Shown: positions 32,875 to 63,688 of the stretch, in pieces
Numbering within the stretch: the stretch's first letter is position 1
How the letters are laid out: each line of letters starts with the position of its first letter
Source of the DNA: Ectobius pallidus
Lineage: Eukaryota; Arthropoda; Insecta; Blattodea; Ectobiidae
Direction: 5' to 3'
Assembly (NCBI GenBank): GCA_964059195.1
Contig: CAXKWD010000001.1
Span: forward strand, 216,326,484-216,390,483
Length of the DNA: 64,000 nt
The notes under the pieces: model-generated
Told to the model about the DNA's origin: nothing
What the model saw: only the letters and a program-made list of their open reading frames with translations
Database searches by the model: none
Position numbers and translations under genes: made by a program

Positions 32875-35800
32875 ATGGCTCGAGTGCTGTTAGCCGTGGG
32901 TCTGCTAACGCTCGTCATGTGCAGTGCCGGGGGTCTCTGCCCCCCAGAGTGCGTGTGCCACACCAACAGGACGTCTTGCTCCACGTGGAGCGCCGGTCTG
33001 CAGAACCTAACAGATCTCGCGGTCACCAATGCGCGGCTCCAGAACATCCAAGTCTTCCCCGGTCTGAGAAACCTCTCTAAACTCGACCTGTCCTCTAACC
33101 TCCTCGACGGTTTCCCTGCTGGAGAGTTCGCGTCTCTTCGAGTGCTCAATCTAAGCGGCAATTGTTTCTCGGAGGTCGGTGAAGGATGGCTCCGAGGTCT
33201 GGAGAGTTTGGAAGTGTTAGACTTATCTCATAACAATGTGTCCGTAGTGGAAGATACGGCACTGGAGTGTATTCCAGAACTACAGACTCTAATTCTCCGC
33301 AACAACAAGATCTCGCTGCTACCGCATTTCAATAGCAGTCTTCAGAATTTGGACTTGTCCGCCAACAATATCTCATTTCTCAATGACAGTGCGTTTTCTG
33401 GTTTGGAGAACTTACGAGTTATTAACCTCGGGGCTAACAGACTGCAGGAGTTAAATATTATGTGTTTCGCAGGACTAGCCAACCTCCAAGAACTAGATTT
33501 GTCCGGAAATCTCATTTCGGTGTTACAAGATGGCGTGCTGAAGGAACTGGCGAGCCTACTGAGGCTCAACTTGAGTGGGAATCGTTTACAAAACTTGAAT
33601 GACCAGTCTCTTCACGGTTTATCGAAACTTCAACAGCTGGACTTGTCTAAAAACATGATTTCTGTGATTCAGGACGGACTACTGAGTGAACTAGAAGCAT
33701 TGGTCAGGTTGAATATTAGCTGGAATCGCTTGGAATCGCTGAGCGATCAGTGCTTCCGCGGGCTGTCACGACTACAGCAGCTGGACGTGTCTCACAACCG
33801 CATTACCAGCGTTTCTCCGGGCACGTTCCAGCCCATGGGAGGCCTCACAGAGCTGATACTGAGTGACAACCCGGTATTGGGTGTGATGGTGTTAGTGGGA
33901 ACGGGCAGGAAGCTGCAAGTGGTGGACGCTTCTCGAGCGGGTCTGACACAGGTGCCGGCAGCATTAACACGATCCATCAGGACGCTACAGCTTGCAGGAA
34001 ACTTGGTGACGGCGGTCCGGTGTGGAGACCTGGACAGCTATCCACTTCTGCAGCTGCTTGACCTATCTGATAACCGTATTCTTGAGGTGGAGGAGGATGC
34101 CCTGGGCCGCCTCGAAGTCCTGACTACACTATACCTCTCTGGTAACCAACTGTTAGCCGTACCGAGGTCTCTACCGGCAGGATTGGTCTCACTGCATCTC
34201 CAGAGAAATCGGATACGCCAGGTGAATTCTGGCGAACTACAAGGTCTTCCTCGACTCAAACACCTCTCACTCCGAGACAGCGGCTTATCAATAATACAGA
34301 ACGGCGCTTTCAGCCAGCTTACAGCTCTGGAGATGCTAGACCTGTCCAGCAATCCACTCACCAGTCTTCCAGGCAACGCACTGTCAGGCCCCATCATGAC
34401 TGTGCTCAGACTGTCATCGCTCGCGGCCATCGTCCCCTCGGCAGCCACCGAGATGTCATTTCCAGTCACCTCTCCAGAGCGACTGGAGGTACTCGAACTG
34501 GACAGTAGCCCCGTGTTAGCAAGGCAACTGCTGGCCGACACCGCCGCTCTCGCCGCCTTCCGTCAGCTCCGCCACTTGGACCTGACCAATACCGAACTCA
34601 CTTCTCTGCGCTCAGACCTCTTCCACTTTTTGCCGCGACTTCGGGTGCTCAGACTGGGTGGAAATCCTTGGCAATGTGAAGATATGCTCTGGCTAGCAGA
34701 TTGGGTCCGGCATGAGCAACGCGAGCTGCAGTCCTCGCTACGAGACGCAACGTGTTCTTCCCATCATCAGCAGGCTGTCGTCCCAGTACTTGGACTCAGA
34801 GATCAAGATTTCAACATTACCACCACAAGTACCAGGTATGATGACGACTTCACTACTACATCCAACGAGCCTCTTGATTTTTTAAATATCACTTCCATCT
34901 ACTATGACGAGGAGGATATTAATAATACAGATATATCTGTAGTGACGTCTCCTGACGTATATACAACTACAGACATCCCTACTGAACAAACTTCCAGTTT
35001 AGATTTAAGTGTAGGAATAAGTACCCTTGAGTTTCTCCCCGAAGAAGCAGACCCCACCGATAGCAATAATACATCAAACACAATTCTCACTGTGACCACA
35101 ACAAAACTTCCAATCAATATTACAAACAAATCCATTCACCCTAAATTCCGCGTAAACACTCCCAGCAATACCACATTTGTGAACAGACCCTGGAACCAAC
35201 ATAAATTCTTCCCTAGCACAAATATCAAAGAAGTTCTTCCAAGTACACAACCTTTACTAAACAGTACCTTAATTCAAACTTCCATTTCAAATACCACTAT
35301 TTTTAAGAAACATATATTCCCACACAAAGATCTTCAGAAGTTGATGCATCAACAAGAAAGATCTTTCAACAATATTATGCAAGGAGATGAATCTGTAGCT
35401 GCTCCTCAAGTTGCTATTAAAGATGTTTTCAGAGACAAAACTAATTTCACTAAAAGCGTAAGAAATGAATCTAACACGAAAATTCCTGACAACAAACAAA
35501 CACTAACAAATTCATCTTTACAACACGAGTACACAGTTACAGCCAACATCTCCTCGTCAGCTCTAGAAGGGGAGAATCTCTTGTTTGAGAATGTGACTGT
35601 AGCTGTGGGAGAAAAGTCTGTGTTTTACAGCAGTCGTGCCAGCGATGCTTATGTTTCCGGTGTGCGTGTGACTGTTAAAGACAGTGTTAGCACGTCCCTG
35701 ATTTCAGGATCGCATCCTGGTATGTTTGTTTTGTTAGGGGTTGTCCTCGCCATGGCAGGTGCTCTGGCCATGGCGATGTCACACTGTGCCAAGAGGAGAC

Positions 35801-35877
35801 GGCGGCAAGCTGTAGAGTACAGCAGGCAACAGGACATTGAGGTCAGAAGCATGTCCAGTATAGGGGACCTTTGGTGA
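32875..35877 (+). CDS. 2mit: 2mit: leucine-rich-repeat single-pass membrane protein, nested in timeout
   Basis: A single open frame of 1000 codons. I chose the ATG at 32875 because it begins a clean signal peptide (MARVLLAVGLLTLVMCSAGG); the 16 codons upstream in frame have no ATG and follow a likely acceptor (AG at 32839-32840). Domains: LRR N-terminal cap with CPPECVC (about 23-45), roughly twenty LRRs of the form LxxLxLSxNxI (about 45-595), LRR C-terminal cap from NPWQCED to ATC (about 597-628), a Thr/Ser/Asn-rich stalk with many N-glycosylation sequons (630-948), one transmembrane helix GMFVLLGVVLAMAGALAMAM (about 949-969), then a 31-residue basic tail starting HCAKRRRRQ and ending SIGDLW. 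Identification as 2mit combines this architecture with its opposite-strand position within timeout. In Drosophila 2mit is a neuronal receptor-like protein implicated in short-term memory. No kinase or TIR domain is present. It could be another LRR surface protein if the nesting proves false. Confidence 0.85.
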   Translation: MARVLLAVGLLTLVMCSAGGLCPPECVCHTNRTSCSTWSAGLQNLTDLAVTNARLQNIQVFPGLRNLSKLDLSSNLLDGFPAGEFASLRVLNLSGNCFSEVGEGWLRGLESLEVLDLSHNNVSVVEDTALECIPELQTLILRNNKISLLPHFNSSLQNLDLSANNISFLNDSAFSGLENLRVINLGANRLQELNIMCFAGLANLQELDLSGNLISVLQDGVLKELASLLRLNLSGNRLQNLNDQSLHGLSKLQQLDLSKNMISVIQDGLLSELEALVRLNISWNRLESLSDQCFRGLSRLQQLDVSHNRITSVSPGTFQPMGGLTELILSDNPVLGVMVLVGTGRKLQVVDASRAGLTQVPAALTRSIRTLQLAGNLVTAVRCGDLDSYPLLQLLDLSDNRILEVEEDALGRLEVLTTLYLSGNQLLAVPRSLPAGLVSLHLQRNRIRQVNSGELQGLPRLKHLSLRDSGLSIIQNGAFSQLTALEMLDLSSNPLTSLPGNALSGPIMTVLRLSSLAAIVPSAATEMSFPVTSPERLEVLELDSSPVLARQLLADTAALAAFRQLRHLDLTNTELTSLRSDLFHFLPRLRVLRLGGNPWQCEDMLWLADWVRHEQRELQSSLRDATCSSHHQQAVVPVLGLRDQDFNITTTSTRYDDDFTTTSNEPLDFLNITSIYYDEEDINNTDISVVTSPDVYTTTDIPTEQTSSLDLSVGISTLEFLPEEADPTDSNNTSNTILTVTTTKLPINITNKSIHPKFRVNTPSNTTFVNRPWNQHKFFPSTNIKEVLPSTQPLLNSTLIQTSISNTTIFKKHIFPHKDLQKLMHQQERSFNNIMQGDESVAAPQVAIKDVFRDKTNFTKSVRNESNTKIPDNKQTLTNSSLQHEYTVTANISSSALEGENLLFENVTVAVGEKSVFYSSRASDAYVSGVRVTVKDSVSTSLISGSHPGMFVLLGVVLAMAGALAMAMSHCAKRRRRQAVEYSRQQDIEVRSMSSIGDLW

Positions 35878-35923
35878 CAGTCACCGAGATACTAGGGTAC
35901 AAAACCCTGATGAATGGCAATAT

Positions 35924-35929
35924 AATAAA
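35924..35929 (+). terminator. First AATAAA poly(A) signal after 2mit
   Basis: AATAAA lies 47 nt after the TGA stop. A real 3'UTR could be much longer; further AATAAA motifs occur downstream, for instance near 37475, so this is only a candidate site. Confidence 0.35.
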
Positions 35930-37560
35930 AACTGTTTAATATTTGACCAATTTTTAAAGTGTTGGAAATGGAGAGGTGTAAACTTAGAACGAATATTTCT
36001 CTATCTTTTTATGTAAGTGTGGTGAAAGAGTTAAGGATACATTTGTGAAAGATGAACTATCTTATTTCTAGGCTATTAACAAAGAAAGGAGATTATGCTG
36101 CTCATTTGAACAGAATTTCAGATAAATTATGTTGTGCCATATCAAATCAAAACATAAATGACAATATCTTTTTCACATATAACAGCAGAAAGCAATACAA
36201 GAATTCTCTAAATTTCCAACCACTTTTTTAACTTCTCGTATATTACAGTAGACATCTATGAGACTTCAGCTAAAATCAGGATGTTGTAAGAAACAAAATT
36301 TTGATGAGAAAGCAAATGAATTTAGCAGCAATATTATGTATGACCTCTTAAAATCAGGATGTTGTAATACAAATTTTGGTGATAAAGCAAAGAGTTTAAA
36401 AGCAATATTATTTTAAACCCCCCAAAAAACTAATGGCTAAAGTACTAGTAACATTTTCTTTATTATTTAAGACTGAGATGATTTACATGGTGTATGTTGT
36501 ATTATTACACAAAACCTATCACGATATAATTATTAGATTCACGCATTCCCATAAATTTTGTATTTGGCTTATTGGTTCTGTAAAACATTACTAGGGGATG
36601 TTTAAAAACCCTCAGACTCAGTAACAGAATCACCATGCATCCCTAGTAGGAAAACAGCAATGAAAAACATATTTTCTAGTTATACAAAAATATTTGAAAA
36701 GTTTGTGGTATGAAGAGAAAGAGTATGGAAATGCCTATACAAAACTAGTGGAAAAACTTGACTGAATATTATACTATCATAAAAGTACGTATTTCACTTC
36801 CTAGAATATACACAGAATTGATTTACAATGCATTTCATCATGTCCCTCCTCAAAGAGGGGTTGAATAATCATTTGTTATCTGAAAGTAAGTGAGGGAAGT
36901 CTTTACTGACTTCTCAGGGAGAGAAGAATATGATTGAAACAGCTGTCTGTACGACAGTAATTTGATACGCACACTGTATGGCACTTGCACAACATCTGCT
37001 GTATTGCACTTTGAATCTATATTAAATCTTGTGTCATGGCACATGGAATAGCTCTATTCTTTCTTGTTTGGCAAGCACATATGCATTGTTTCACTAAAAA
37101 AACAACTTGACATCCGATGCATATTTCAACAACTTTTTGGTTTTGTTTCGTTCTGCCACATATCTTGCCATAGATTATTGAAAATATATGTGACACAAAA
37201 GACCACCTGTGGAATTTCTATCCTAGAACTCAACTCAATTAGGTGTAGTATACAGAAGATGGAGGAAGTTTCTATGGGTTTAACTCATGTACATTACATA
37301 CGTACTGAATTATTGACAAAATTAACTGAGCAATAGAACATCTATCTTCATAATTATACAAGAAATTGGATTAGCAGTATCGAGGGGATGCAGCTGTAGG
37401 GTATGTGAAACACATTGTGTTTGCTACCTAAATTCAGCAGGCTCAATATGTTACAATTTGTTTCCATATTTGCAATAAATACAAACGGCATTATGTATAT
37501 TCGGTTCTTACATGTTATAGACTATTTGATTAATATTTAAAAACTACTATTGCTATAATT
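35930..37560. other. 2mit 3' flank, no gene recognised
   Basis: AT-rich, low in obvious transposon sequence, with a short local duplication of the phrase AAATCAGGATGTTGTAA at about 36275 and 36350. It may include 2mit 3'UTR. No open frame here resembles a known protein. Confidence 0.4.
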
Positions 37561-37561
37561 T

Positions 37562-37697
37562 AACTACCATTAACGGCTGTGGGTGTCGGCATGCTGACCA
37601 CATGCCCCCAATCCTGCCATCTGCCTGTGGTAGATGCCACAGCAGTCGGGTGGTAGGCCAAGTCCCTTCAGGGATGTAGCGCCACGGAGTTTAGTAA
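37562..37697 (+). mobile_element. SINE family 1, 5'-truncated copy
   Basis: Starts at ACCATTAACGGCTGTGGG and runs through CGGCATGCTGACCACATGCC to GCGCCACGGAGTTTAG. Confidence 0.65.
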
Positions 37698-37747
37698 TAG
37701 CTATAATTTAACACAGGTTACCTTCTTTAAATTTTATTTACACTCTG

Positions 37748-38040
37748 CCTGCATGGTTTAGTGGTTAGCGTTGCTGATTACAGATCCGAAGGTCTGGGTT
37801 CAATTCCCTGTGCCTCCTCAAGTTTTTCTGAGGTAGGGAGATCTGGAACAGGATGCACTCAGCCTTGACACAAACTAAGGAGCTACTTGATAAATAAGTG
37901 GCGGCTCTGGTCCAGTAAGCCATGAGTAACAGCTGTGGGAATCGGCATGCTGACCACATGCTCCCAATCCTGCCATCTGCCTATGGTAGATGATGCAGCG
38001 GTTGGATGGCAGGCCTAATCCCTCAAAGAAATTTAAAATA
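37748..38040 (+). mobile_element. SINE family 1, near full-length
   Basis: A box GGTTTAGTGGTTAGCG and B box GGGTTCAATTCCC are correctly ordered, followed by the body shared with 19212-19496. It ends in an A-rich stretch. Confidence 0.7.
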
Positions 38041-38316
38041 AAAACCCTGGATCCGCCATTGAGCACTATGCTCTTTTCATATTGAATATAGCATTCTCAA
38101 TAAAGTGTATTTTAAAATTCATCAACAAAATCAGATAACGAAATCAAATGAGGATAGAAAGCTCAAAAAGCAGAGAGTTCTGAGCTACTGAAGTTTTCAA
38201 CAACAAAAAATATATATATGTATATATAACAAAACTTAGAAGAAAATTAAAGTTTGTTCACTGATAATAGCTAGAAGCAATTGTAAAGAAAACACAATTA
38301 AAGTGAAGTTTTTTTG

Positions 38317-38520
38317 TTAACTCCATGCACGAAGCTCCTCAAGCTTTTTTGTTTCTTGCTCGAGCAAAAGATGTTTACCTCTAGATTGAGTAACTACTGC
38401 TATTAGAGCCCTGCTATCTACAGGGTGATATAGAAATAACTGAGTAGATGGCACAATGGTCATGCTGTTTGTAGCAAAGGAGTTAACAACTACAGGTGTT
38501 TTTATTTTTTTAAATTTCAA
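38317..38520 (-). CDS. Uncharacterised 67-codon open frame
   Basis: The minus strand encodes KTPVVVNSFATNSMTIVPST, then LFLYHPVDSRALIAVVTQ, then KHLLLEQETKKLEELRAWS and a stop. The composition looks more protein-like than neighbouring frames, and it ends in a plausible charged helix. I do not recognise the family. It could be a terminal exon, a retrocopy fragment or chance. No clear acceptor with a pyrimidine tract precedes it. Confidence 0.25.
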   Translation of the reverse strand: MKFKKIKTPVVVNSFATNSMTIVPSTQLFLYHPVDSRALIAVVTQSRGKHLLLEQETKKLEELRAWS

Positions 38521-38732
38521 ATTTTAAAAAAATGTGTTTGTCTAGTTATTGTACATTCTGAATTAGTCTTATCAAGTTTTGCAATAATAGTTTTTTCTCT
38601 GCCATTAAAATCCAGAATCCCAAGGGAACAAATATACTAGACATGATTTTGCATTCTGGACAGGTCTTCCTACCCCTATCGATATTTCCGTATGCATGCT
38701 GCATTTACATAGTGTACTGACAGTATTACTAG

Positions 38733-39392
38733 TAGGGTTTGGATGTTTATTACATGTTATATTTTTATCCTGACCTCCATTCTCGTTGCAAATACAAATT
38801 ACACAAGAACTGCACATTTGTTATCTTAATTGAACTGTTTTTATTCAGCATACAAAGTCATATTCTGGTAATTTTCATGGTCTTGGTCATATTTCGGTCT
38901 TATCTGCAATTTGTCATATTTCAGTTATAATTTCGGTAAAACAGCACAATTATGCAGTTTATGCACTAAATTGTAGACTTACATTTTTTCTAAAAAAGTC
39001 AGGAATATTTTGGTTTTACTGTAACTGAAACGTGAAGGCACAATAACTAATAATAGCACAATTATCTCTTGCTCCTTGTTGTTAGCAACTTCTAATCAAA
39101 AAATATTTTCAGTTCACATTTGCAGTGGTATCCGGAATCATTAATAGATTAGAAGTTCTTTACAAGTAAAACTGTAAATCACCTGCAAAACTGTCAAAAA
39201 GTGGTTATTCACTGAATTAATGTAATGTAATAATTTGGTGTCATTAAATGTTTTAAATTGGAACATTTACTTTAAGAAAAAACATTCTTTTATGAGGTCA
39301 TATTTAGGATTTTTGGATCATATTTAGTCATTTTTAAGGTCATATTGGCAGTCATATTTTCAACTTTTTAGGTCATACACATCTGAACCCTA
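38733..39392 (+). mobile_element. hAT-type non-autonomous element, TAGGGTT family, copy 1
   Basis: Ends are TAGGGTTTGGATGTTTATTA and ATACACATCTGAACCCTA. Flanks ATTACTAG and ATTGTTAG match at 6 of 8. The body carries iterated GTCATATTT motifs. Homologous to 59037-59684. Confidence 0.7.
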
Positions 39393-39699
39393 ATTGTTAG
39401 TATTATTATCATAATAATTTCTGTTCGCTGTAGGCATCACTTAGCAGTCTTCACATCTGTACCAATCTGTGTTTACTTCCCTTCGTGAATTAATATTATC
39501 AATTTTATCACTTAGTTATCTTCTGGTGTATTATGGATTTGATATCAATCCCAGTTGAAGTTTCACTGTAACCTAATCAGTCTTTCTAAACATAACTTCT
39601 TTAAAGTTGTTTCTTGTTTGTTTAAATCTTTGTTGGTTAATTCCCTTTGCATTTGTTAGATCTAAAAATATAGGATTCATGTTCAAAGTTCCTTGGGCT

Positions 39700-39765
39700 T
39701 TAATGGACAAGGCGACTGACTTCCAGGCTAATGCCTGGGTTCAAACCCCAAGTAATGCTGATTTG
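39700..39765 (+). mobile_element. tRNA-like SINE head
   Basis: GGACAAGGCGACTGACTTCC with B box GGGTTCAAACCCC, then a non-tRNA tail. Not a foldable tRNA. Confidence 0.4.
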
Positions 39766-40344
39766 GATTTCACAAGTTATTAAATCCAACTTTCAGTTTC
39801 TTTTAGTTATGTGATAATAGTGGTATTTTCTCTTTCGACCATAGAGCAGGGTTTCTTAGGGGGAGTTGTGCTGTCGTAAAGAGTAGTGTGGGAAAATAAA
39901 AATATAAAACAGATTTTTTTTAGAAACACTAACACGTATCAAATCATTCATTAGACATAATTGTTAAAAACACATTTCTAAGAAGAAATTTACTGTATTT
40001 TAAAACTACAGTCTGATACCCCATTTACTAATGTGATGGATGATTTCATTTTTCATATAGAAGTTTGATGGACGGCTCCACAGTACTCACACAAAAGAAA
40101 TTGCTTTTAAGAAAAGGGAGACGATTCCTATATTGAATTTTGTTTTGAATGCTGCCATGGACCTTTTTTTACACGGCAAATATTTCCAAAGTTTGTGTGA
40201 CTACTTTTTTTTTATCTACTTTGACAACAAAGTCAAACTAACCTAAATTTTGAGATAAATAATGTGGGAAATTATTCCAAATCTTGGGAGGATTAAAACA
40301 AACTTCTGGATACTCAAAGAATTAGAATCATAACATTAAATCAA

Positions 40345-41022
40345 AAATCCCTTTAGGCAGGCCTACAGGATGAGGTATATTTTGAAGTGCTTTTGGTTTA
40401 ATTTATTGTCGCTGCACAGCAGTCTTCTTTAGCCTTGGCATGACAAACCCACAATATTAACTGCAAAAAACAGGAAAGAGCACTTTTTCAAACATTCAAA
40501 TCTCGCCTTATATGAGAACTATCGAGAAACTAGTTATTGATTTGTAGAGTACTCATCAAGAGCTTTTCAACGATACCTCACAAGACGTGGTTTCAAACAT
40601 TTCGAATTTCCATCCCCCCACCCCCACTCGTACCCCCAAAACCTCCGAATCGTTGGTGTCACTGTGAACTCCATAGGGAGTACTGTAATTTATTCAAACA
40701 AAGTTTTCCTCTATACTTCATAGGGACCGAGATATAAATTTTTCAAAATTTCAAACCCCTCCCCTGACTCCCCCCTTGGGCCAATTTTGCTCATTAACGA
40801 ACTTGTCCGAACTATTGGGCCTAGAAATAACATAATAAAATTTGGTTCAAATATCTTCAAAATTACAGCCGCTAGCATGTAAAGATATAAATATATATAT
40901 AAATATCAGAACATTTTTTTTTTTTTTACGGGCGGTGGTTTCGTACTTAGGGAGGCAGGAAACGTTTAGATATGGAAGAATTTTTCGAAAGTCATGACAT
41001 GGTATCGATTGCAATAGGTATA
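40345..41022 (-). repeat. Unclassified dispersed repeat D, copy 2
   Basis: Inverse of 23271-24103, with a poly-T run at 40914-40926 and numerous point differences. Shorter by about 150 bp. Confidence 0.6.
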
Positions 41023-41971
41023 AAACAATCAGACACCAATTATATTGAAGTTAATGTGAACTATAGTTGTAATGCAAACATTTCTTCGGTTGCAAAGCAT
41101 TAATTCTTTTATTTATATTTTAATATTCTTTTGGTGTCACAGTGCTATGGTGTTTAAGAAACTCTGCTCTATGGTACCAGCTAGCCAACTTCCCAAATAG
41201 CATTCCATTTCAGAATCGGTTTTGTGAAAATCATTTAGCAGGAACTCTCTTGTCATGGCATACAGCGTGTTACTGTGATTGCCTATAGTTTGCATAATGC
41301 AACATATTTGCATTATGTATATGTAATGGTTTGAAAACAATCCTTATTACCAATATGCATACATAGTACTCTCGCTTCAAAGCCATTTCATCATCAATCA
41401 ATCAGGGTGGTGATATTTAACTTTAATGTCCACGTTCAGAATTTAGTAAAGTGATGCTATAACCTCGTGCGATGAGTTGTACAGTCTGAGCTGCTATAAA
41501 CACCTTTATCCTACATTTTTGTTATATATGTACAGTATGTTATGGGTGAAGCCATCTCTCTGTCCTATTCAGTCACTGGAGTGGGCAAAAATTTGTGGAC
41601 ATGATCAACATCATGAGAATCTGCACCAAAAATAAAAGTAAAAGTAATTTATTACACAAGATGACCAAGAGGTTTAATGTCAAGACGAAGTCGAGATGTG
41701 CATGAGCCATAAGATACATGTGATACACGTACTGGTAAATAGGTAAAAATGAAAAATATACAAAATAACTTATAGGTTTCATTTTGCGGATTATGGCATT
41801 TGTGGTTTTTTTAATGAAATTACATGTTTTTTCACGGCTTACATTTGTCTGCAAAAACAAACATCTCTAGTAATAAAGTTTGATAACAAAAGTACAGAAT
41901 CGATAAGAAGTTCGTTGCCATGAGAATCGTTCCAAAACAAAAAGTAATGAATCGATAAGAAGTTCGTTGCC

Positions 41972-42383
41972 ATGAGAACCGTTCCAAAACAAACATGTTC
42001 AATAAGGAAATTTACATTTTCAGTTGAGTTTTCTCATAAAATGTTTGGTTCAGAAGGAGATATTTTCATTCCAGAAGATGTCGCTGAAGGTGCTAGATCC
42101 ATTATGGATAATTTATTACCTGAAGAGTCAAAGATATTATACGAAAGAGAATATCAAGTGTTTTCAGAGTGGAGGAACAGCTGAGAGATTCATTATTATT
42201 CTTACTGAAATCTTCCTGTCATGTTTCGCAGAGAAATCAAATAAATGTAAGGTTTCAATGCTATGGAGTAGTTACTCAACATTGAAAACCACTTTATCTC
42301 GTAAACAAAATGCGTATATTTCGAAGTTTCTCCATCTGAAGGCTTTCCTAAAGCGAAAGTATGCTAACTTTTACCAGTCATAG
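41972..42383 (+). pseudogene. Crypton-like tyrosine-recombinase core-binding fragment, frameshifted
   Basis: The first frame has DIFIPEDVAEGARSIMDNLL then EREYQVFSEW. After a shift of frame near 42170 the second reads EIFLSCFAEKSNKCKVSMLW then SYSTLKTTLSRKQNAYISKF and LKAFLKRKY. This order (YxxFxxW, LxxFxxLSxxYxPSTLWSxYS, LKAFLKR) is that of the N-terminal SAM-like half of Crypton-like tyrosine recombinases in insects. The catalytic half is absent. Confidence 0.45.
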
Positions 42384-42529
42384 ACATATTATGCAAACGG
42401 ACGTGGTTAAAAAACTTTATTCAAACATATGAATAACATCCTCTATTAATTTTTTTTCTTAAGGTTTTTCTCAATAAGTTGTGGTTTCCCTCAATCAAAC
42501 AATACGTAATAATTATACATTCTATTTTT

Positions 42530-42745
42530 AATTAATTTTGCTTCTCCACTGTCGTCTGTCCATCGTATCTTCACATTATAGTCCTCCATCCATCCATCCA
42601 GACATCAGTCGGTCTTCCTTTCCTTCATCTTCCATCAGATTCCCAGTTCATAACGACTTCGGCAACTTTCGGTTGTCCATTCTCTTCACATGGCCGTACC
42701 ATCTTAATCTTTTCTTTTCAATAATTTCTATGACATCTTCATTCA
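42530..42745 (-). pseudogene. LINE C-terminal fragment
   Basis: The minus strand reads EIIEKKRLRWYGHVKRMDNR and, after a stop, further tail sequence ending DVWMDG. RLRWYGHVKRM is the standard tail motif of a second insect LINE family, different from the AGHVARM family above. Confidence 0.6.
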
Positions 42746-42755
42746 TTAATTATAA

Positions 42756-42823
42756 GGAGGGAAAAGTAAAGAATACTGTAATAAAATAATTATTTTATTA
42801 CAGTATTCCTTACTTTTCCCTCC
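42756..42823. repeat. Near-perfect 68 bp palindrome
   Basis: Arms of 34 bp with no spacer and one mismatch. The outer ends are GGAGGGAAAAGTAA and the centre is AATAAAATAATTATTTTATT. It adjoins the LINE fragment. Confidence 0.85.
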
Positions 42824-42899
42824 ATCATTTTTTTTCTAATCTTCTCCAGTAATCTATTTCTGTGGCTCGTGGTTCTGCTTCTTGTTTGTTGTTTACCGT

Positions 42900-44085: not shown

Positions 44086-44089
44086 GAGA

Positions 44090-44336: not shown

Positions 44337-44384
44337 CAGTAATGAGTTTCATTTAACATTATTAAGGAACAAAGAAAATCGCTA

Positions 44385-44515: not shown

Positions 44516-44519
44516 GATC

Positions 44520-50430: not shown

Positions 50431-50434
50431 TGGT

Positions 50435-51959: not shown

Positions 51960-52049
51960 GTGATGATGATGATGATAATAATAATAAAATAATAAAATTA
52001 ATAACAATCATAAACATAATAATGATAATGACAACAGACATTAATAAAT

Positions 52050-52082
<33 letters not shown>

Positions 52083-52337
52083 TTATTTATTCTATTGCTC
52101 AGGCTGTTGAACAACCGTCATTGTCATTGATGATGATGATGATGATGTTGATGGTGATGATGATAATAATAATAATAATAATAATAATTATAATAATAAT
52201 AATTATATCTTCAGGACCAAAATTTACAAATGGCAATTTGACCAAGAGGGAAAACCAAAAAAAAAAAGACTGGAACAACGTGGCCCACAGTGAAAGGATG
52301 AATGAGATATTGGCATAGTCCTAATGAGCTTATTTGA

Positions 52338-52388
<51 letters not shown>

Positions 52389-52450
52389 CAACAATAACAA
52401 CAATAATAATAATAATATTAATAATAATAATAATAATAATAATAACAACA
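51960..52450. repeat. Cluster of GAT/AAT microsatellites
   Basis: Several (AAT)n and (GAT)n tracts, notably 52045-52082, 52130-52205 and 52340-52447, separated by short unique sequence. Poly-Leu and poly-Ile frames here are artefacts. Confidence 0.85.
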
Positions 52451-52489
52451 ACCACATTTAATGAATACTGCATTTCCTTTTGCTGTCTT

Positions 52490-52650
52490 AATAAATGGTG
52501 GAATGACACATAGCAGAGGAATCAGGAGCAGCCCAAGAAAACCTGTGCCAACTCCATTTTGTCTACCATAAATTCCATATAGATCCACCGAGATTCATCC
52601 CAGGTCCCAGCGGTGGAAGGCGAATGGCCTAACCATGCGTCTTATGCTGT
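52490..52650 (-). mobile_element. tRNA-derived SINE family 3, copy 2
   Basis: Matches 21590-21768 (phrases CCAACTCCATTTT, CCACCGAGATTC, CCCAGCGGTGGAAGGCGA). The A-box end is partly deleted. Confidence 0.5.
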
Positions 52651-53517: not shown

Positions 53518-53612
53518 ACCTATGGTAGACGATGCAGCTGTCGGGTGGTAGGCTTTGTCCCTTCAGGGATGTAGCACCACGGAGTTTAGTTTAGTTTAGT
53601 TTATTTATTAAC
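53518..53612 (+). mobile_element. SINE family 1, 3' end fragment
   Basis: ACCTATGGTAGACGATGCAG through TAGCACCACGGAGTTTAG with a TTTAGTTTAG tail. Confidence 0.6.
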
Positions 53613-53639
53613 ACTTACATGTAAATCATTCATGAACAT

Positions 53640-53830
53640 TTGATATGATTAATAATGAAAAACCTAAAAATCCGGCTTCGAGGTGCATTTCACGATTAGA
53701 AAGCGCCACCGGGAAAAAGAAGTTCCCTGGCCCAAAATCCCCCGCATAGTGAGTTTCATACAAATTGATCAATGTTTTCTAACTTAAGCGTATATTCATG
53801 ATCTTCTGCTAGTTGCCACTTTCATTAATA
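53640..53830 (-). mobile_element. Helitron internal fragment
   Basis: Inverse of the block at 13030-13155 (phrases ATCCGGCTTCGAGGTGCATT, AAGTTCCCTGGCCCAAAA, ATAGTGAGTTTCATAC). Terminal structures are not seen here. Confidence 0.4.
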
Positions 53831-53984
53831 TGTATTATGTAAAACGTTTTGCTAAACCTATATATTTATTGGTGGTTGGATGGTATTTTGTCATTTGGAA
53901 TTTCGCAAACCTAATAAGAGCCAAAAAAATCACTTATCCATCAGTTTTTAGTTCATAACCCATAACACAGTTATTATCATGACG

Positions 53985-54305
53985 ATCACAATGTATATAA
54001 GTTTATGCCACCAAATCAAAATTGTGTTTTTAATCAATGGAGATTTATATTATTTCAATTTCCAAACAAATTATGTTGTATAAAAGAATCTGTTTTCGTG
54101 CTGCTTAATGGTAGCATGTGACATATTAATCACTGCATGTTGATGCTTACATGTCCATCCAGTAACGAGCTGACGATTTTATCAGATAAAATTGCATCTT
54201 CATATTAGCAGCAAGCATTTTATAATATAAACAATCATGAATGGTCTATACCCGTGGAATTGATAAACATTATTGGTCAATATCAAACGACGCGGCGTAT
54301 GAGAG
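53985..54305. repeat. Dispersed repeat E, copy 1 (partial)
   Basis: Shares TTATTTCAATTTCCAAA, AGTTATGTTG-like and ATTATTGGTCAATATCAAAC with 54530-55160 and 59965-60530. Confidence 0.5.
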
Positions 54306-54529
54306 GAAAAGTCACGTTAAAATAAAAATTCTCTGCATAACAGCCCTCTTGTTGGATGATTACCAGCAAAGAGCAAAGAAATGTCTTACAGGGAAATCAA
54401 TAGAAACAAAGTATTGTACATTTCGGTTTAAAAAAAATTATTTTAATAGTATCTGAAGTAATAAGATTGGATGGCCTGCTTATCTTCAAATTCAAGCTTT
54501 TAACAAATTGCATGTAAAAGGTAATCGTG

Positions 54530-55160
54530 ATTTCTTCATAGGTAATCCCACAAGAGTTGACTAGTTTATCGATAGATTCGCGACTGCGAAGCAGGAGCGA
54601 AATTATCTGATGTAACTCGTCAACTCGAGTTGGATTTATTAGGACTATTTCATGAATAAAATGTAACGGATTGTATAAATAATAATTACTTTCGTGCTTT
54701 GTTGTATAAAAATAAAACTAAAAGTTACGACATCACGGCATACTGTGAATCAACCATCCATGAATCGATTCGAGCTGCCTTGGTGCTACCACCAGTGCAT
54801 ATAAGACATAGTTAACTTCATTCAGTTAAGCTAACAGCAGAACAGAATAAAAGCACACGAACTGGCTTGCACCGAATTGAAACTGTGTTCTTAATCAATG
54901 TACATTTCTATTATTTCAATTTCCAAATAAGTTATGTTGCATAAAATAATCTGATTTCATGCCGCTTAGTGGCAACAGTGACTATCAATCACTGCACACT
55001 GATACTCGCGTCTCCAGTAACGACCAGCTGGTTTTACTGCGATAAAATACCCTCCTCGCGATTCCTACAAGAATATTGCAAGATAAACGGCCGTGGTTGG
55101 TCTACATCCGAGGAATTGCTAAACGTTATTGGTCAATATCAAACACGCAGCGTATGAGTT
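54530..55160. repeat. Dispersed repeat E, copy 2 (long)
   Basis: Starts GGTAATCCCACAAGAGTTGA and contains CGTCAACTCGAGTTGGATTT, a TATAAGACATAGTTAAC block, and the end shared with copy 1. Not classified; no transposase or reverse transcriptase is visible. Confidence 0.5.
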
Positions 55161-55589
55161 GAGTAGTCTTATTAAAACACAAAATATACTCAATGATTGT
55201 TAAATAATATTGCAGTATCCTTAGGACATCTGTAGTAGACAGTTGTGTTGATAATATTGTGTTTGGAAAGTGGATAAGAACCGACCAGAATATTCAAGTT
55301 ATGGAGTGAGTTTTAGGCTAAAAGTTATAAAATTCTTGGGAGAATATGGTGACAGAGCCACTGGACAAGAATTTACAGTGTCTGGAGTGTAATTTGCTTG
55401 TTTCTTGTCTGTTTAAGCAACTGCTAACTATCGAATGTCATATGTGCGACACAATCATTAAGTAAATTCATCGTGGCCGCAATATCGACACGTACGCTAT
55501 CGATTGTTAACTGGTGCAACTTTTAATATGTGTTTCTTTTTTTCACTAAAATGTTTTCGTAGCATAAAGGATGTACCCTAGTTTTTTGG

Positions 55590-55751
55590 TATAAAAATCT
55601 GGAAAAAGTTCATCTATTACATAGGTAAATACAGTAAAGGCTAGTTTACACGAAGAAATTAGTTTTTGTATATAAAAATCTGGAAAAAGTTCATCTATTA
55701 CATAGGTAAATACAGTAAAGGCTAGTTTACACGAAGAAATTAGTTTTTGTA
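55590..55751. repeat. 81 bp exact tandem duplication
   Basis: TATAAAAATCTGGAAAAAGT through AATTAGTTTTTG occurs twice in succession, taking with it the MITE terminus AAGGCTAGTTTACACGA. Confidence 0.85.
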
Positions 55752-55913
55752 ACTAAGTTTTGTAACTGTTTTCTATTTGAATACGCAAGTGCAACATGTA
55801 CTGGCGACAACGAGTTACGACACTACGCAGTTTCAGCCAATTCCGACTTTTCACAGAACTATAATACTAGTTTTGTAATTTTACGTTCATTTAGCTTGTT
55901 CACCTTTTCTAAA

Positions 55914-56075
55914 ATGAAGTGGGAGTGTGAGGAAATTGATAAATGCCTAGATTCTTATGTGTCTCAAACTTACATATGGAATTTCAGCAACTTGAACTTC
56001 AGAAATAATACAAAATGTGCGGTTGTCCTGGAATTAGTTTTGAAGAAAATGGGTGTAATTAATTTTATGAAATCA
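55914..56075 (+). pseudogene. MADF-like domain fragment
   Basis: Reads MKWECEEIDKCLDSYVSQTY then IWNFSNLNFRNNTKCAVVLE and LVLKKMG. The spacing of Y..W....YR...K and the final KKMG is similar to MADF domains carried by some DNA transposons. It is cut off by the nested Helitron. Confidence 0.35.
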
Positions 56076-56635
56076 CTAGCATGTGCCCGCGGCTATGCCT
56101 GCGATAATTATTTCAAAAATTAAAAATTAAGAGCATAATAGTTAAATCATTATATTTATTAACACCTAAATCACGTGGACCACATACCACGATTAGATAG
56201 CATCGCCTGGTAAAAGCTACCTCAGATTCAAGTTCCTTGGCCCAGAAAACCCCTGTATAGTGAGTTTAGTCCAAATAAAACAATGTTTGGCTATATTTAG
56301 GGCTTACAACATTCAAGAGATCGTGAAAGTTTTATTTCCAAGGTATGACAAAAAATAGTCAAAGCCAACTGTAATTGATTTGACATTGAAATGTATAACT
56401 GAAAACTGATGCTTCGAAAACGCAAAAAAATGCACGTTTTCTGCCCGTTTTTCACTCATAACTCACGAACAAAAACAAAATTTAAAATTCCGGCTTCAAG
56501 GTGCATTTTCCGAACCTTCAGTCCACCTATGTTTAAAATTTTAGATCTCTGCGTTGAGTAGATTTCGCTGGGCATCGCGGACAGACAAACAGACAGACAG
56601 AAGGAAAGACACACACTTCCTTTTATTAATATAGA
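56076..56635 (-). mobile_element. Non-autonomous Helitron nested in MITE
   Basis: The minus strand starts TCTATATTAATAAAAGGAAG with CTGTCTGTCTGTTTGTCTG and ends GCCGCGGGCACATGCTAG at 56076. It shares the AAGTTCCTTGGCCCAGAAAA block with 13030-13155 and 53640. Confidence 0.65.
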
Positions 56636-56728
56636 CTTTCATGAAAGTTGTTATGAAATCTACTATCATCGTGTAAACTAGCCTTAATATGACAGCTATA
56701 AATTTAAAATTAATATCTTTGTACTCAC

Positions 56729-56826
56729 TCGGGAGCTCGGCCAGGAAGATGTCATGCAGTGCCATGAATTCTTCTTCAGGAGACATGTTGGCTGAACCAA
56801 AGGAATCATTTTCAGGCCACACCTCT
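56729..56826 (-). CDS. timeout: timeout internal exon, third of three
   Basis: This 98 nt exon has an acceptor ending TTATTTTCAG before 56826 and a CCCGA/GTGAGT donor after 56729. Its first A completes an Arg codon. Then come 32 codons beginning EVWPENDSFGSANMSPEEEF and ending LAELP, and one spare base. Human TIMELESS has REVWPEGDVFGS and ISPEEE at the same place, so the order and spacing of conserved blocks are preserved across all three exons. I found no later exon in the window: the next TIMELESS block (the LDYLKRF and HTNHC region) was looked for by eye on the minus strand down to 36 kb and not seen. Confidence 0.88.
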
Positions 56827-57251
56827 CTGAAAATAAGTTAACATAAAACATAATTAATTTCATGAGGCAATATGACATGGAACAGTGGATTGCATGCACA
56901 ACTCCTGCATTAGGATTCCAGATTTCTTAAATCTGTACTTTACTGTTGGAACTAAGAACAATGATATACAACCCCTAATCAGTGTGGATATTAAATTTGA
57001 TCACAGCTGCCAAATTAACACTTAATCACATAAATGTTTCTATCCTCAAAAATATCTATTTAGCTCACGAATCAGTGACCAATCTGGTGTAAGGAAGTGT
57101 AAAAAAACAATCAACCAGTGCTGCCTATTGTTTTAATAAGTACCAGATTGGTATTATTTAATTAATGAAGGAAGTTTACACAGTGAAGTTATTAAATATG
57201 TAAGCATATGAGTGGAGACTTAATACACTGAACTTCACAAAATTTGTACTA

Positions 57252-57292
57252 ACCTGGACCGGTTTCGGGATTATAACTTTACCCCATTTTCA
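57252..57292 (-). ncRNA. Degenerate hammerhead-like motif, left arm
   Basis: The minus strand has TTGAAAA in place of CTGANGA, then TGGGG-loop-CCC, GAAA, palindromic CCGG and TC. C3 and G8 are both altered, so cleavage is not expected. Confidence 0.35.
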
Positions 57293-57441
57293 ACGTACTC
57301 CGACTGATGTTTGTGTTGTATGGGCACCCTCCCGCGGACGTCCTATGAACTTCCTGACTAGTTCATCTTCCGTTGGTATTTCAAAGTTCATTAGGTTATC
57401 TGCATTCTTCTGGATAAATACCGTATCTTCTCCCAGACTGT

Positions 57442-57490
57442 CAGTTGAAAATGGGGTAAAGTTATAAACCCAAACCCGGTCCAGGTTAGT
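57442..57490 (+). ncRNA. Degenerate hammerhead-like motif, right arm
   Basis: TTGAAAA, TGGGG-loop-CCC, CAAA in place of GAAA, then CCCGGTCC. More decayed than the left arm. Confidence 0.3.
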
Positions 57491-57540
57491 ACAAATTTAG
57501 TGAAGTTCAGTGTATTAAGTCTCCACTCATATGCCTACAT

Positions 57541-57625
57541 ACCAGATTGGTACTTTCTGAGATTGTGTGGTGGATGCGCAAATGTCTGTCCTTCTGTCTG
57601 TCTGTACGTGCAATAACTCAAATGT
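57541..57625 (+). repeat. Dispersed repeat A, copy 5 (fragment)
   Basis: ACTTTCTGAGATTGTGTGGT and CTGTCTGTCTGTACGTGC match the left part of the family. Confidence 0.5.
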
Positions 57626-57854
57626 GCTTAAACTAAAATTATAAAACATGCGAGAAAATGAAAGTGATAAAACTAAAATTATAAAATTATGTCGAAAGTT
57701 GGTTGTGATTGGTTGAAATTAAACATATTCTTATTTTGGACTGGTCACAGTTTCATCAGCTAAAGAGTCATAATAATATTACCCAAAGATAAAAACAATA
57801 ATAATAGAGATGATGGCAATGATAATCCTGCTGATAAATGAATAACAACAACAA

Positions 57855-57855
57855 C

Positions 57856-57905
<50 letters not shown>
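57855..57905. repeat. (AAT)n microsatellite
   Basis: About 15 AAT units preceded by AAC units. Confidence 0.85.
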
Positions 57906-57907
<2 letters not shown>

Positions 57908-58111
57908 GCTCATAGATAAAACTGCAAAAAAAATAACCAAAGTCAAGAAAGAGTGGTTCCAAGTCAAAATCAAAACCAAACAAATGATTCAGATCAGTGA
58001 AGACGAGAGAAAAGCAAGATCAGAAAGAATGAAGCAATACTGGGCTAAAATTAAAACACAAAACATTAAGAAGTGATTGATTCAACGTACCCCAAAGTTG
58101 GGTGAAATGGA

Positions 58112-58112
<1 letters not shown>

Positions 58113-58174
<62 letters not shown>
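58113..58174. repeat. (AAT)n microsatellite
   Basis: About 20 uninterrupted units. Confidence 0.85.
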
Positions 58175-58175
<1 letters not shown>

Positions 58176-59036
58176 CACTGCACAGTGAATAGAGTTTTGT
58201 ACACTCTTTATAAGCCATGAAGTAGATACGGAATAGAATGCGAACCAGTTCCATACATAAGCATGACCGGAATATGAAACCAAACATATGCACACCGTGG
58301 ATATCTCTGCACTGAATAAAATATGACCTCCCGTGCCCAAGTTAAGAGTGTTATGAATTGAATAGAGCAGCATCAATATCCCAGCTACTCCCAAGCTAAT
58401 CCCATTCCCGGGCATCTATCAAAAGGCTGCAGGCTTCATTTAGAGATACCAAGAATTAAAAATAAAAATACAGGAGGATAACTCATGACACGGAGAGCAT
58501 ACATTATGTATGAGGCCAGCTTCTGCAGCTTGCACAAACTTATCTCCTTCCTGGTTGGTTTCCACTATTCATTACATGAATGTAAAATCTCTATTAATTT
58601 TATGTGACTTCATTTAGGTAAAAACTTCTCTACGGAAACTCTTTTATCACTGCCTGTTGGCAGGGAACATAATACATTAAAAAGTTTGGAATAATTATGT
58701 GAAATGAAAACTTAATCCGTAGTGTTTGAACTTTCATATCAAAACATATTTTGTTTCCTATATGCATACATCTACCTTTTATCATGGTTTTTCATTCTGC
58801 TATTATTTACGCATCGTAAAATATTGAATTGTAGGGCTAAGATATCAGTGATGTTCAGTTTTACGGTGAATAAATTGAAACTGAAAGAGATATTCCACCA
58901 ATTTTATGCAAAAATAAAACCTTGTACAATATATATTATGGTTTGTAACACACTTACATTTCACTTTTTATAGTTATAGCTGTAGCTGAGGATGATCACA
59001 ATGGTGATTGAAACTACGTACTCCTAAGGTAATAAC

Positions 59037-59684
59037 TAGGGTTCGGACATTTATGACATGTCATATTTTTATCCTGAACTCTGTTCTTGCTTCAAACACA
59101 AATTAAACACGAACTGCACACTTATTATCCTAATTGGACCATTTTTATTTTGCAGATAAAGTCATATTTTGGTCTTTTTTGTGGTCTTGGTCATATTTTG
59201 GCTGTATTTGTAATTTAAAGTCATATTTCAGTTGCAAGTTTGGTAAAAAAAACACAATTATACAGTGTACGTACTACATGGTCGTGTTAAATTTGAAATT
59301 TATTTAATTAATTCAATGATTATGCCAAATTAATAGTAACTTAAATTTTAAAATTAATGCAATTGTTCATATTTAATAGGGACATGCAAGGTCTACAAAA
59401 TATTACGAGTAGGCTACTTGGAGCTGAAGAAGCGAGCAAACAGGAGAACATTTTTTTAAATAGAAGTTCATCACAAGTAAAACTCAAAATTGTTAAAAAG
59501 TGATTATCTGACTGAATTCATGTGATTGATTCATGTTCAACGTTTAAATTGAGTCATTTGTTTTTTTGAAAATGTTACTTTTATTAGGTCATATTTTGGA
59601 TTTTTGGGTTATATTTAATAATTTTTAAGGGAATCTTTGAAGTTATATTTTCAACTTTTTTAGGTTATAAACATACCAACCTTA
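59037..59684 (+). mobile_element. hAT-type non-autonomous element, TAGGGTT family, copy 2
   Basis: Ends are TAGGGTTCGGACATTTATGA and ATAAACATACCAACCTTA, with a perfect 8 bp duplication GTAATAAC at 59029-59036 and 59685-59692. GTCATATTT motifs are iterated. It confirms the family definition for 38733-39392. Confidence 0.85.
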
Positions 59685-59964
59685 GTAATAACTATAAAAA
59701 GTTAAGTTTAAGTGTGTTACAAACTATAATATACATGTTATGACTTCAATGTATCCTTCCCAATATCAGTATCTACCTTGTACATTAATTACATAAAAGA
59801 GTTTACATTCAAAGCAGCTACACAGAAAGCAAAAAGAAACAGAGAAGAAAGAAAGAAAGATTTGTAGACAGATATAACGGATGGAAGGAATAAAGAAATA
59901 TTAAGAGGAGAAAAAAACTTCAATGAAAGGAAAATTGGTTAGAAGAAAGATAGGGAAAAGAAAT

Positions 59965-60530
59965 TACCATAGGTAATCCCAAGAGAGTTGACGAGTTTCA
60001 TGAGCTCGTCATGAGCTCGTCAACTCGAGTTGGATTTATTAAGTCTATTCCATGAATAAAAATGTAACGGATTATACAAATAATAATTACTTTTGTGCTT
60101 TGTTGTATAAAAACAAAACTAACAGCAGCTAGATCACAGCGTACTATGAATCAACCATCTGTGAATCGATTCGAGTTACCATGTGGTAACCAGTGCTACC
60201 AATGGTGCATATAAGACATAGTTAACTTCATTCAGGTAACATGAACTGGCTTGCTCCAAATCGAGATTGTTTTTTTAATCAATGTACATTTCTATTATTT
60301 CAATTTCCAAACAAGTTATGTTGCATAAAATTATCTGTTTTCGTGCTGTTTAATGACAACAAGTGACATATTAATCAGTGTACACTGACACTTTCGTCCA
60401 GTAACGAGTAGACGGTTTTACCCAATAAAATACCATCCTTGGAATTCCTACAAGAATATTGTAAGATAAACGTCCGTGATTGTTCTATATCCAAGGAACT
60501 GCTAAACATTATTGGTCAATAATATGAGTG
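59965..60530. repeat. Dispersed repeat E, copy 3
   Basis: Matches 54530-55160. It also has GACGAG...CTCGTC inverted motifs near 59993-60025. Confidence 0.5.
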
Positions 60531-61578
60531 GAATAGTCGGTGGAAACTTGTTAGCATGTTCCTCATTACCATTTTTTCCTGCATAGTACAACTGTTTTTG
60601 AAAGTATCAATCCCAATCTGACTAATTACATGTTTGAATATTCCTTTGACATGTTTCAGTTTCTCGCTTAGTGCATTCACATTTGGCTCTCCAACCACAT
60701 GTTGCAAAACATGACCAATAAATGTAATTTACATAAGAAACAAAAAAGTATACAAAATTCATTACCTGTAGCTGTACACTATGCAGCAAGCACAATTACT
60801 TACATATTAAATTGTGTGTCTTAATTGCTATTTTATTTTATTTTATTTTATTTTATTTCAAAACACTCAGCACAGTTAGAAGAAAATAATAAACACTAGT
60901 ATGAGTTGTATTTATACGCTGCCATCTAGGCTCTACAAGCATACAATGGGGTAATGAGCATTGTGCCAGAGGATGAGAGTCATCAACTTTGAGGCCATAG
61001 CCTTAGGCTGGCCGAGAGGCAGCGAGAGCAAGTTCCTGGAGTTTTGAAATGAAAACTTCCGTTAGTACATTGCAATGGAATTGCAACTCTGCAATTGTCA
61101 GCCACCATACAGAAAAACAGAAGAGGCAAAGTTCAAACTGAATAACAACTGGTAGAGGAAACAACAGATCATTCACATGATGCATTTTTTGGAGAGAGAA
61201 TTTATGACTAGAAATCTTTCATACACAAGCAGGAAAATTATGCATGCATTTTCCTCCCTGAATTTAATTTCAAAATTAAGGACAAGGAAGTTTTGTGAAG
61301 GAAAATATTATGGGATACATGAGAAATGTTTTACTTACTTTAATCTAAATTGTTACAGTTCAAGCTTGATCTAGTCGTTTGAAAATGAAAATCCATACTT
61401 CTTGTTTTAATTTCCACGAAAAGATCAATAATTTTTTCCTTGATCTGCCATGGTTAAAGTTTTCTGTTAAATAAAAGAACCGAAAAAAAATAGAATAGCC
61501 GGAAACAAGATAATAATCTGATTCTACACTTTGTCACATTCAGGAATATGGTATATGGTTTTAAGCACAACACAGGCA

Positions 61579-61602
61579 TGGGGGGGGGGGGGGAGGGGGG
61601 GC
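61579..61602. repeat. Poly-G tract
   Basis: About 22 bases, nearly all G, with one A. Confidence 0.8.
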
Positions 61603-62139
61603 TACTACCTTCCACTAATATGCCAGGGTAGGCACTGTGGTAGCGACAGTGATCTTTCTCTCCCTCACTGCCAGCGGACCGGCCGTGGCATGCACACAAC
61701 AGTCAAACATCACATCACTGGAACTGTGAAGCACACAGTTCCATACAAAGATTTTCTTTTCTCTTTTTAATAAACTGGGGGACGGCTACTGGCATTAAGC
61801 TTAAGTATTATATATTGTACAAGTTTAAAGAAAGAAGTAAAGAAAAAATGACTCATTATACTAAATGTTATCGATAATAATAAGTAAAAATAGGGGGTGC
61901 TGCAGTTCCACAGCGCCTATAAACGAGCCACCACTGGTAGATTTGTAGCATTCAAAATTGGAGTGCCCATTAGATTTGAATGCAGTAACTTTGATAATTT
62001 AACGCTGGAATATTACCGGTACCCACAGACACGGACTGAAGTTAATATAATATTTTGACACTATTGCAGTGACCATTAGATTTAACGGTGCATTACATTC
62101 AAATAAATACGGTAGTTTTCTGTGAGAGATTAAACTCAC

Positions 62140-62220
62140 CTTGCTGCTCGAAGCAATCCTACAGCTTCTTCATATTCATGTTCTCGGAGTAACCTTTGAA
62201 TACGCACCATAGCATCTGCC
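62140..62220 (-). CDS. timeout: timeout internal exon, second of three
   Basis: This 81 nt exon has an acceptor ending TTTAATTTCAG before 62220 and an AAG/GTGAGT donor after 62140. Its first G completes the AA left by the upstream exon, giving Lys. It then encodes ADAMVRIQRLLREHEYEEAV and GLLRAA and leaves AG, which the next exon completes to Arg. The joined text DAQKADAMVRIQ resembles the helical stretch of vertebrate TIMELESS containing AEAMVRIQ and LLRSAREVWPE. The exon is too short to be found as a long open frame; it was recognised from protein similarity and splice phase. The intron separating it from the upstream exon is 1308 nt. Confidence 0.88.
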
Positions 62221-63528
62221 CTGAAATTAAGTAAAAACCATGGTATACATTGATTTAATAAAAAAAATTTAAAAAAAACAGTATTCATTGATACAATAAA
62301 TAAAATCAATTTCTGTATAGGCTGTTTTATTTTTTAAAAATATAAAAACACTTTCTTAAGGCTAGTTTACACGATGACACTAGGTTTCGTAACCACTTTC
62401 TTGAAAGTGATTTCATGAAACTAATTACACACATTTTCTTTCCAATGTAACCACACATTTCATGTTATTTCTGAAGTTCAGGTTGTTAAAATCCCATATA
62501 AACGTTTGAAACACGTATGAATACAGGCATTTCACAATTTCCTCACTTCCCATTTTAATTGACGAAACGCGAACAAGCTAAATAAGCGTAAAATATCAAA
62601 ATTACTATTATAGTTTCCTGAAAAGTTGGAATCAGACGAAACTGCGTACTTTCGTAACTCATTGTCGCCAGTACATCTAGCGCTTGCGCATTCAAGCAAA
62701 AAACAGTTGCGAAACTTACTTACGAAACCTAATTTCGTCGTGTAAACTAGCCTTAAGACTAAAAAATTCTGTATCCCTGGAAGATGTCAAACTGAGGTTC
62801 TACTGTACATCGTGTTCCCACCTCAGAAATGAAATTTGCCAATTTGCAAAGATCTGTATTTCTTCAACACTTCAAGGAATTTTTCACTAATTTAAGGCCA
62901 GTATGAAACTTCCTAGTCGATATAGGTAGAGGCAGCTATTTTTGTTGACCATTGTGGATTGTTAAAGCCCATCTAGTTTATGGACCAAATTTTTATTCCT
63001 GAAATACCAGTAGTTATTTATGTTATTTTGAATATTGTAATTGATTAATAGGTACACGATAATAGGACCGTAGTAGGAATAAAAATATTTGTAGTGGTTA
63101 AAATGAATTGCTAATTATTTATTTGTACAAAAGGGAAGTGAATGATAATGACATCTGGTGATATCCTGTATAATCTCTTGAACGTTACAAGACCCAATTT
63201 TTTACCGTAATGATACTAGTCTGTAAAATTAAACTTTATATAGATGGAGAGAGTTCTGTTAAACAATCTTTACGAATCAAAATAACATAAAAATGTTTAC
63301 AGTCATTTTAATATACTTTTTGCCATTTTTATTTAATTTTGTCAACAATTTTGCTATTTTTATTAGGAAAAATGCTTAGCATACACTAATTTCAATTTGT
63401 GTGGTACGTTTTGTTCAATTATGACATAATTTTGCTGAAAGATGAATAATTTCCCATTTTTAATGGAATTTGTTATATACTTTGCAAAATATAGAGACCT
63501 TTATCATGCGCGAAAAAACAATTCTTAC
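62221..63528 (-). other. timeout intron (1308 nt)
   Basis: The intron has GTAAGAA and TTTCAG ends. It contains a short inverted-terminal MITE at 62359-62753 and otherwise AT-rich sequence with no coding signal that I can recognise. Confidence 0.85.
62359..62753. mobile_element. MITE with AGGCTAGTTTACACGA ends, short copy
   Basis: Ends are AGGCTAGTTTACACGATGAC and TTCGTCGTGTAAACTAGCCT. Outer flanks are TTA and TAA, forming TTAAGG/CCTTAA palindromes. Internal homology to the long copy includes GTTTCGTAAC and the reverse of its left part. Confidence 0.65.
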
Positions 63529-63688
63529 TTTTGTGCATCAATATCTTGATCCGAAGCAGCATCAAATGGCACCACATCTGGTATCTCAGATGTTCCTTGC
63601 AGAACTACAGATAATTGTGGTCCTACTTCATCCCATAATTCCTCTGGGTTACGAGCCTGGGCAGTTTGTTGTGAAGCAGCATTTGATT
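63529..63688 (-). CDS. timeout: timeout (Timeless-2) internal exon, most upstream of three in window
   Basis: This 160 nt internal exon lies on the minus strand. A pyrimidine-rich acceptor ending TTTCTTTCAG precedes 63688 and a GTAAGAA donor follows 63529. It holds 2 nt of a split codon, 52 full codons and 2 nt of the next. The peptide runs from SNAASQQ through PEELWDEVGPQL and VVPFDAASDQDIDAQ. From memory of the family, human TIMELESS has an equivalent stretch, with VVPFDAAS followed shortly by EAMVRIQ, roughly midway along its ~1200 residues. TIMELESS/TIMEOUT works with TIPIN at replication forks; in Drosophila timeout also has a minor role in light entrainment. Upstream exons must lie beyond the right edge. 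Canonical circadian timeless is less likely, because the match is to the TIMELESS/TIMEOUT type and 2mit is the neighbour. Confidence 0.88.

Follow-up and report, generated by a model that had tools for sequence, protein, structure and literature searches.

The stretch of DNA analysed here (the window, 64,000 nucleotides, C1:216326484-216390483 of a 2.12 Gb genome in 410 contigs) carries genes on both strands. On the minus strand lie three coding exons of timeout, exon 13 (63529..63688), exon 14 (62140..62220) and exon 15 (56729..56826). All three are placed by their splice sites and the spliced frame, and exon 15 ends in the phase 1 donor GTGAGT. The part of the window from position 1 to 56728 belongs, by the spliced exon map, to timeout coding intron 15 (minus strand). 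Within this intron, on the plus strand and antisense to the host, sits a gene for a leucine-rich repeat (LRR) membrane protein, the putative 2mit (32875..35877), with one coding exon specifying 1000 amino acids plus a stop. An earlier note, made from the sequence alone, had proposed that the three minus-strand exons join in phase into a TIMELESS/TIMEOUT segment, and both parts of this proposal hold: the exons have AG acceptors, GT donors and a single open frame, and their peptide matches residues 556-657 of 7pfo_K (E 1.7e-20). Two PDB sequences were matched by this peptide at E up to 0.1, both titled 'Protein timeless homolog'. Searched alone against Pfam, the 112-residue segment gave two matches, both below the cut-offs and neither to TIMELESS.

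Timeout was followed over a 264-kb stretch, composed of the window and 100 kb on each side, which contains zero N. A tblastn search of this stretch with human TIMELESS returned ordered minus-strand matches of 20 bits or more from residue 5 (C1:216454908) to residue 954 (C1:216236237); weaker matches on both strands, mostly with E above about 1, were treated as noise. Joined by script, 20 minus-strand coding exons give an 847-residue frame with zero stops. Exons 1-20 are spliced, whereas three more, leftward of exon 20, were placed by similarity alone. The splice sites of exons 1-20 were read by eye, the exon 19 acceptor being the weakest choice, and 18 of the 19 introns are GT-AG. The other, from exon 7 to 8, is GC-AG, with the donor GCAAGT at C1:216411473 (window coordinate 84990). 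The spliced protein carries PF04821 (236.5 bits, E 4.5e-70). In a PDB search that matched six sequences at E up to 0.001, it scored 843.1 bits to 7pfo_K ('Protein timeless homolog'), which we take to be human TIMELESS, and 87.1 bits to 8dd7_B, presumably the Drosophila clock protein TIM. The earlier note had named the host as timeout, and this difference (843 versus 87 bits) bears that out, as opposed to the clock gene tim. A reading of the three exons as tim was rejected, since the spliced protein is far nearer TIMELESS and a separate clock-type locus exists. That locus lies on the same contig at C1:50.04 Mb, about 166 Mb away, and holds two PF04821 matches, each with in-frame stops (one TAG; three TAA); by eye, it resembles clock tim with introns.

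Timeout coding intron 15 is 131,250 bp long (C1:216251962-216383211), contains no N and is ten times the size of the next largest of the other 18 mapped introns, which measure 90-13,225 bp; its number counts coding introns, with a possible non-coding first exon outside the count. Exon 15 ends at window position 56729 and exon 16 starts at C1:216251961, 74.5 kb to the left of the window. It interrupts the frame in phase 1, following LAELP and ahead of the acidic linker. The distance from the LRR gene to the intron donor is 20.9 kb and that to the acceptor 107.4 kb, and timeout exons of the same order and strand flank the gene on both sides. According to the earlier note, 3' exons of timeout left of position 32875 would confirm nesting, and exons 16-20 were found at window coordinates -74522 to -84324. 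The contrary arrangement that it had named, with all remaining exons between 36 and 56 kb, was not observed, the best of six tblastn matches of 20 bits or more in that interval having an E of 16. That timeout ends within the window, the two genes being merely neighbours, is ruled out by exons 16-20. At the DNA level, the LRR gene is nested antisense in a timeout intron.

Besides the LRR gene, the ORFs of at least 140 codons in intron 15 resemble, by eye, pieces of reverse transcriptase or of other repeats, or nothing recognised. The LRR gene was taken to be the one further genuine gene of the window from a judgement by eye of ten ORFs of at least 120 codons; an Rfam search over the window gave zero matches at the gathering threshold. 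Many diverged repeat pairs populate the window portion of the intron and may account for part of its size. Pairs with 79-89% identity include 55718-56077/62406-62754, 54616-55138/60016-60521, 23278-23817/40485-41022 and 5496-6160/9282-9940, and some are found near timeout exons 14 and 15. Simple repeats at about 24147-24363, 27958-28116, 52102-52521 and 57763-58341 read as long Ile, Leu or Tyr runs in their frames.

The LRR frame is uninterrupted from 32680 to 35877, with an ATG at 32875. Its 1065 codons compare with a longest ORF of 245 codons in 60 simulated 64-kb sequences (first-order Markov, 30 with ORF composition and 30 with background composition), and its coding frame has a GC of 0.49 versus 0.36 in the flanks. 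The earlier call of a plus-strand LRR membrane gene agrees with an LRR_8 match at E 1.9e-90 and one hydrophobic stretch near the C-terminus; all six Pfam families matched are LRR. The architecture is read from Pfam for the LRRs and from hydropathy and composition for the remaining parts. A hydrophobic N-terminus is accompanied by an N-flank cysteine cluster (C22, C26, C28 and C35; 32938..32979) and an LRR region (33007..34662) of 22 pattern-matched units, being 27 pattern hits minus five that overlap or are non-LRR. The LRR C-flank (34663..34779) contains two cysteines, C601 and C627. It is followed by an Asn/Ser/Thr-rich stalk (34792..35694), 26% Ser+Thr and 9% Asn, in which N-glycosylation sequons are numerous. 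A transmembrane stretch is predicted from hydropathy alone at about residues 948-970 (35716..35784), where the protein has its one hydrophobic stretch near residues 947-971, and a short, basic cytoplasmic tail of 30 residues from the sequence (35785..35874). The best 60 of 361 PDB matches include LRR proteins such as Toll-like receptors, LGR4/5 and the IGF acid-labile subunit. Within its own genome the protein is matched over its full length once, among at least 90 matches, these counts being lower bounds from 46 scored of 409 candidates. Each of the remaining 89 matches falls within residues 5-510, and the strongest has 99 bits and 37% identity. The idea of a recent family copy was discarded, as none of the 89 exceeds 99 bits or passes residue 510. 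Judged by its sequence, the gene is intact and predicted to encode a type-I membrane protein, without a close paralog among the scored matches. Elsewhere, an uninterrupted 2214-codon frame with many LRR matches (C11:17688212-17694520) appears to be a very large LRR gene.

The genome also contains glycoside hydrolases of family GH9, contigs C3 and C1 together holding 26 matches to this cellulase family. Four of these cover the first 55-65 profile positions, which argues for at least four GH9 first exons. The loci are at C3:104.49-104.94 Mb, with several in one stretch, and at C1:82.30-82.33 Mb. The joined pieces of one gene matched 22 PDB sequences, best 1ks8, which we take to be a termite enzyme, at 69% identity across 180 columns and 73% across 113. 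The first block, of 59 columns, and the final 26 columns of the second, where the alignment runs past an exon joint, are left out of these values. Endogenous production of cellulases by this insect is probable, and possession of several GH9 genes is a typical feature of Polyneoptera. Together with the clock-type tim locus, the GH9 genes suggest, indirectly, a polyneopteran and thus hemimetabolous insect, probably one resembling a cockroach, cricket or stick insect.

The LRR gene is likely to be 2mit on the basis of its position, orientation, size and type-I LRR membrane architecture, which comprises the signal peptide, LRR ectodomain, disordered Ser/Thr-rich stalk and single transmembrane helix of the 2mit type, as predicted. 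The earlier note had stated that in Drosophila and honeybee 2mit lies in a timeout intron in opposite orientation, and this is correct (PMC3786989). Several published details are absent from the protein described here, and its LRR-CT cysteines, number of LRR units, tail length and want of PKA and FHA motifs all weigh against the identity. The C-flank lacks the four cysteines of fly 2MIT, a feature that PMC3786989 describes for the fly protein only. According to the same paper, the tails of all studied 2MIT orthologs carry NRD1, KEX2, 14-3-3, PKA, at least one FHA and one sorting motif (PMC3786989). Four of six motifs sought are present here (NRD1, KEX2, 14-3-3_3 and diArg sorting), and PKA_2 and both FHA patterns were not found in the 30-residue tail; the patterns are short and weak. 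A SNAIL site, considered as a possible constraint on the nesting here, is described about 20 kb upstream of fly 2mit (PMC3786989). CAGGTG/CACCTG occurs 39 times in the whole of intron 15 and four times at 20-30 kb upstream of the LRR ATG; none lies within 20 kb upstream, which was counted against the 2mit reading. Taken as a whole, there is good reason to regard the locus as an insect timeout, probably polyneopteran, in which the very large coding intron 15 houses 2mit on the opposite strand. We infer that the gene is orthologous to 2mit of fly and bee, and hence that the nesting arose once, before this lineage and Holometabola diverged.

Other histories could have produced the same arrangement. 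A different LRR membrane gene might have entered the largest timeout intron of this lineage in a separate event, so that the likeness to fly and bee is coincidental and reflects the tendency of large introns to collect genes. This model draws on the many LRR loci of the genome (at least 90 matches), on a host intron ten times the next largest of the 18 others mapped and on the several unmatched 2MIT details, the likeness to 2MIT being one of position and architecture. However, if 50-100 LRR loci, an assumed range, were evenly scattered, an unrelated one would fall antisense in intron 15 by chance in just 0.15-0.31% of cases, and the orientation is the same as in the published pair, with a similar size and class. 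Independent insertion is consequently considered unlikely, though it is the most serious of the alternatives. More improbable is a scenario in which 2mit predates the nesting and entered timeout introns separately here and in Holometabola. Lepidoptera prove that the pair is separable, and the host introns carry different numbers (11, 14 and 15). Nevertheless, a single event is a simpler account than repeated arrival in the same host and orientation, and intron numbers move with intron gain and loss, 'intron 15' itself counting coding introns alone. Misplacement of the LRR gene into the timeout intron during assembly would be favoured by the great length and repeat-richness of the intron. Such an artefact is scarcely credible given that the 264-kb stretch is without N and that the timeout exons on either side share order and strand.

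If the gene is 2mit, timeout and 2mit would be transcribed independently from opposite strands, TIMEOUT acting at the replisome and the LRR protein, by analogy to the fly, serving as a cell-surface receptor mainly in the nervous system. In the published view of the fly, the two genes are functionally separate, and 2mit is expressed in the nervous system with a role in short-term memory (PMC3786989). In fly embryos its ectodomain is described as binding to axons as well as to many other cell surfaces (PMC7252235). As a hypothesis, the nesting probably persists for the reason that 2mit has its regulatory elements scattered across the host intron, such that exit would break 2mit expression. The regulatory DNA of a nested gene in its host intron is discussed as a constraint in PMC3786989, and in C. 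elegans a nested gene is described as inducing a short host transcript (PMC12274878). Nested-gene relations are often short-lived, with 20-34% conserved among Drosophilidae (quoted in PMC3786989), and the tim2-2mit pair, tim2 being the name used there for timeout, has been dated before the Hymenoptera-Diptera split (PMC3786989). Should the LRR gene be 2mit and the insect polyneopteran, that date shifts back beyond Holometabola, and the pairing probably predates the insects that undergo complete metamorphosis. An older date, if true, would open a test of a neutral link versus one held by shared regulatory DNA.

Very probably, the arrangement known from fly and bee also occurs in this insect, which would lie outside Holometabola. 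Pediculus and Acyrthosiphon are hemimetabolous. Incomplete 2MIT matches from both, as from Culex and Aedes, were printed in 2013 and excluded from the later analyses of that paper (PMC3786989), so it is the nesting in a hemimetabolous insect, not the gene, that would be new. Among the open-licence titles and abstracts listed, none describes tim2-2mit nesting outside Drosophila and honeybee; annotated genomes may already show it. The Drosophila pair shares with the present locus a timeout host and an LRR type-I membrane gene in one intron on the opposite strand. There, 2mit lies antisense in intron 11 of a tim2 gene of 75 kb and 18 exons, and four Lepidoptera are described as being without the nesting (PMC3786989). 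In contrast, the host intron here is coding intron 15, of 131 kb, and the tail has 30 residues versus 187 in fly 2MIT, the LRR-CT two cysteines versus four. The LRR units number 16 in the fly, two more in bee and moths and 22 here, although counting methods differ. The Apis mellifera pair is close by its published description, 2mit being antisense in intron 14 (here coding intron 15) with a protein of 999 aa (here 1000 aa), the bee values being those described in PMC3786989. A clock-type tim locus is present in this genome, which argues against Hymenoptera, a group not known to retain clock tim. A further parallel is provided by the vertebrate LRRTM genes in alpha-catenin introns, which code for LRR transmembrane proteins and are described as lying antisense within a large, conserved intron of an unrelated host (PMC3933685). 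The host and the LRR family differ from those considered here, and the likeness is one of arrangement alone. On balance we favour, with some reserve, a model in which the timeout-2mit nesting arose in a single ancestral event, before Polyneoptera separated from the other winged insects, and persisted while the intron grew to 131 kb, owing to 2mit regulatory DNA dispersed across it; the pair would form the insect counterpart of LRRTM/alpha-catenin.
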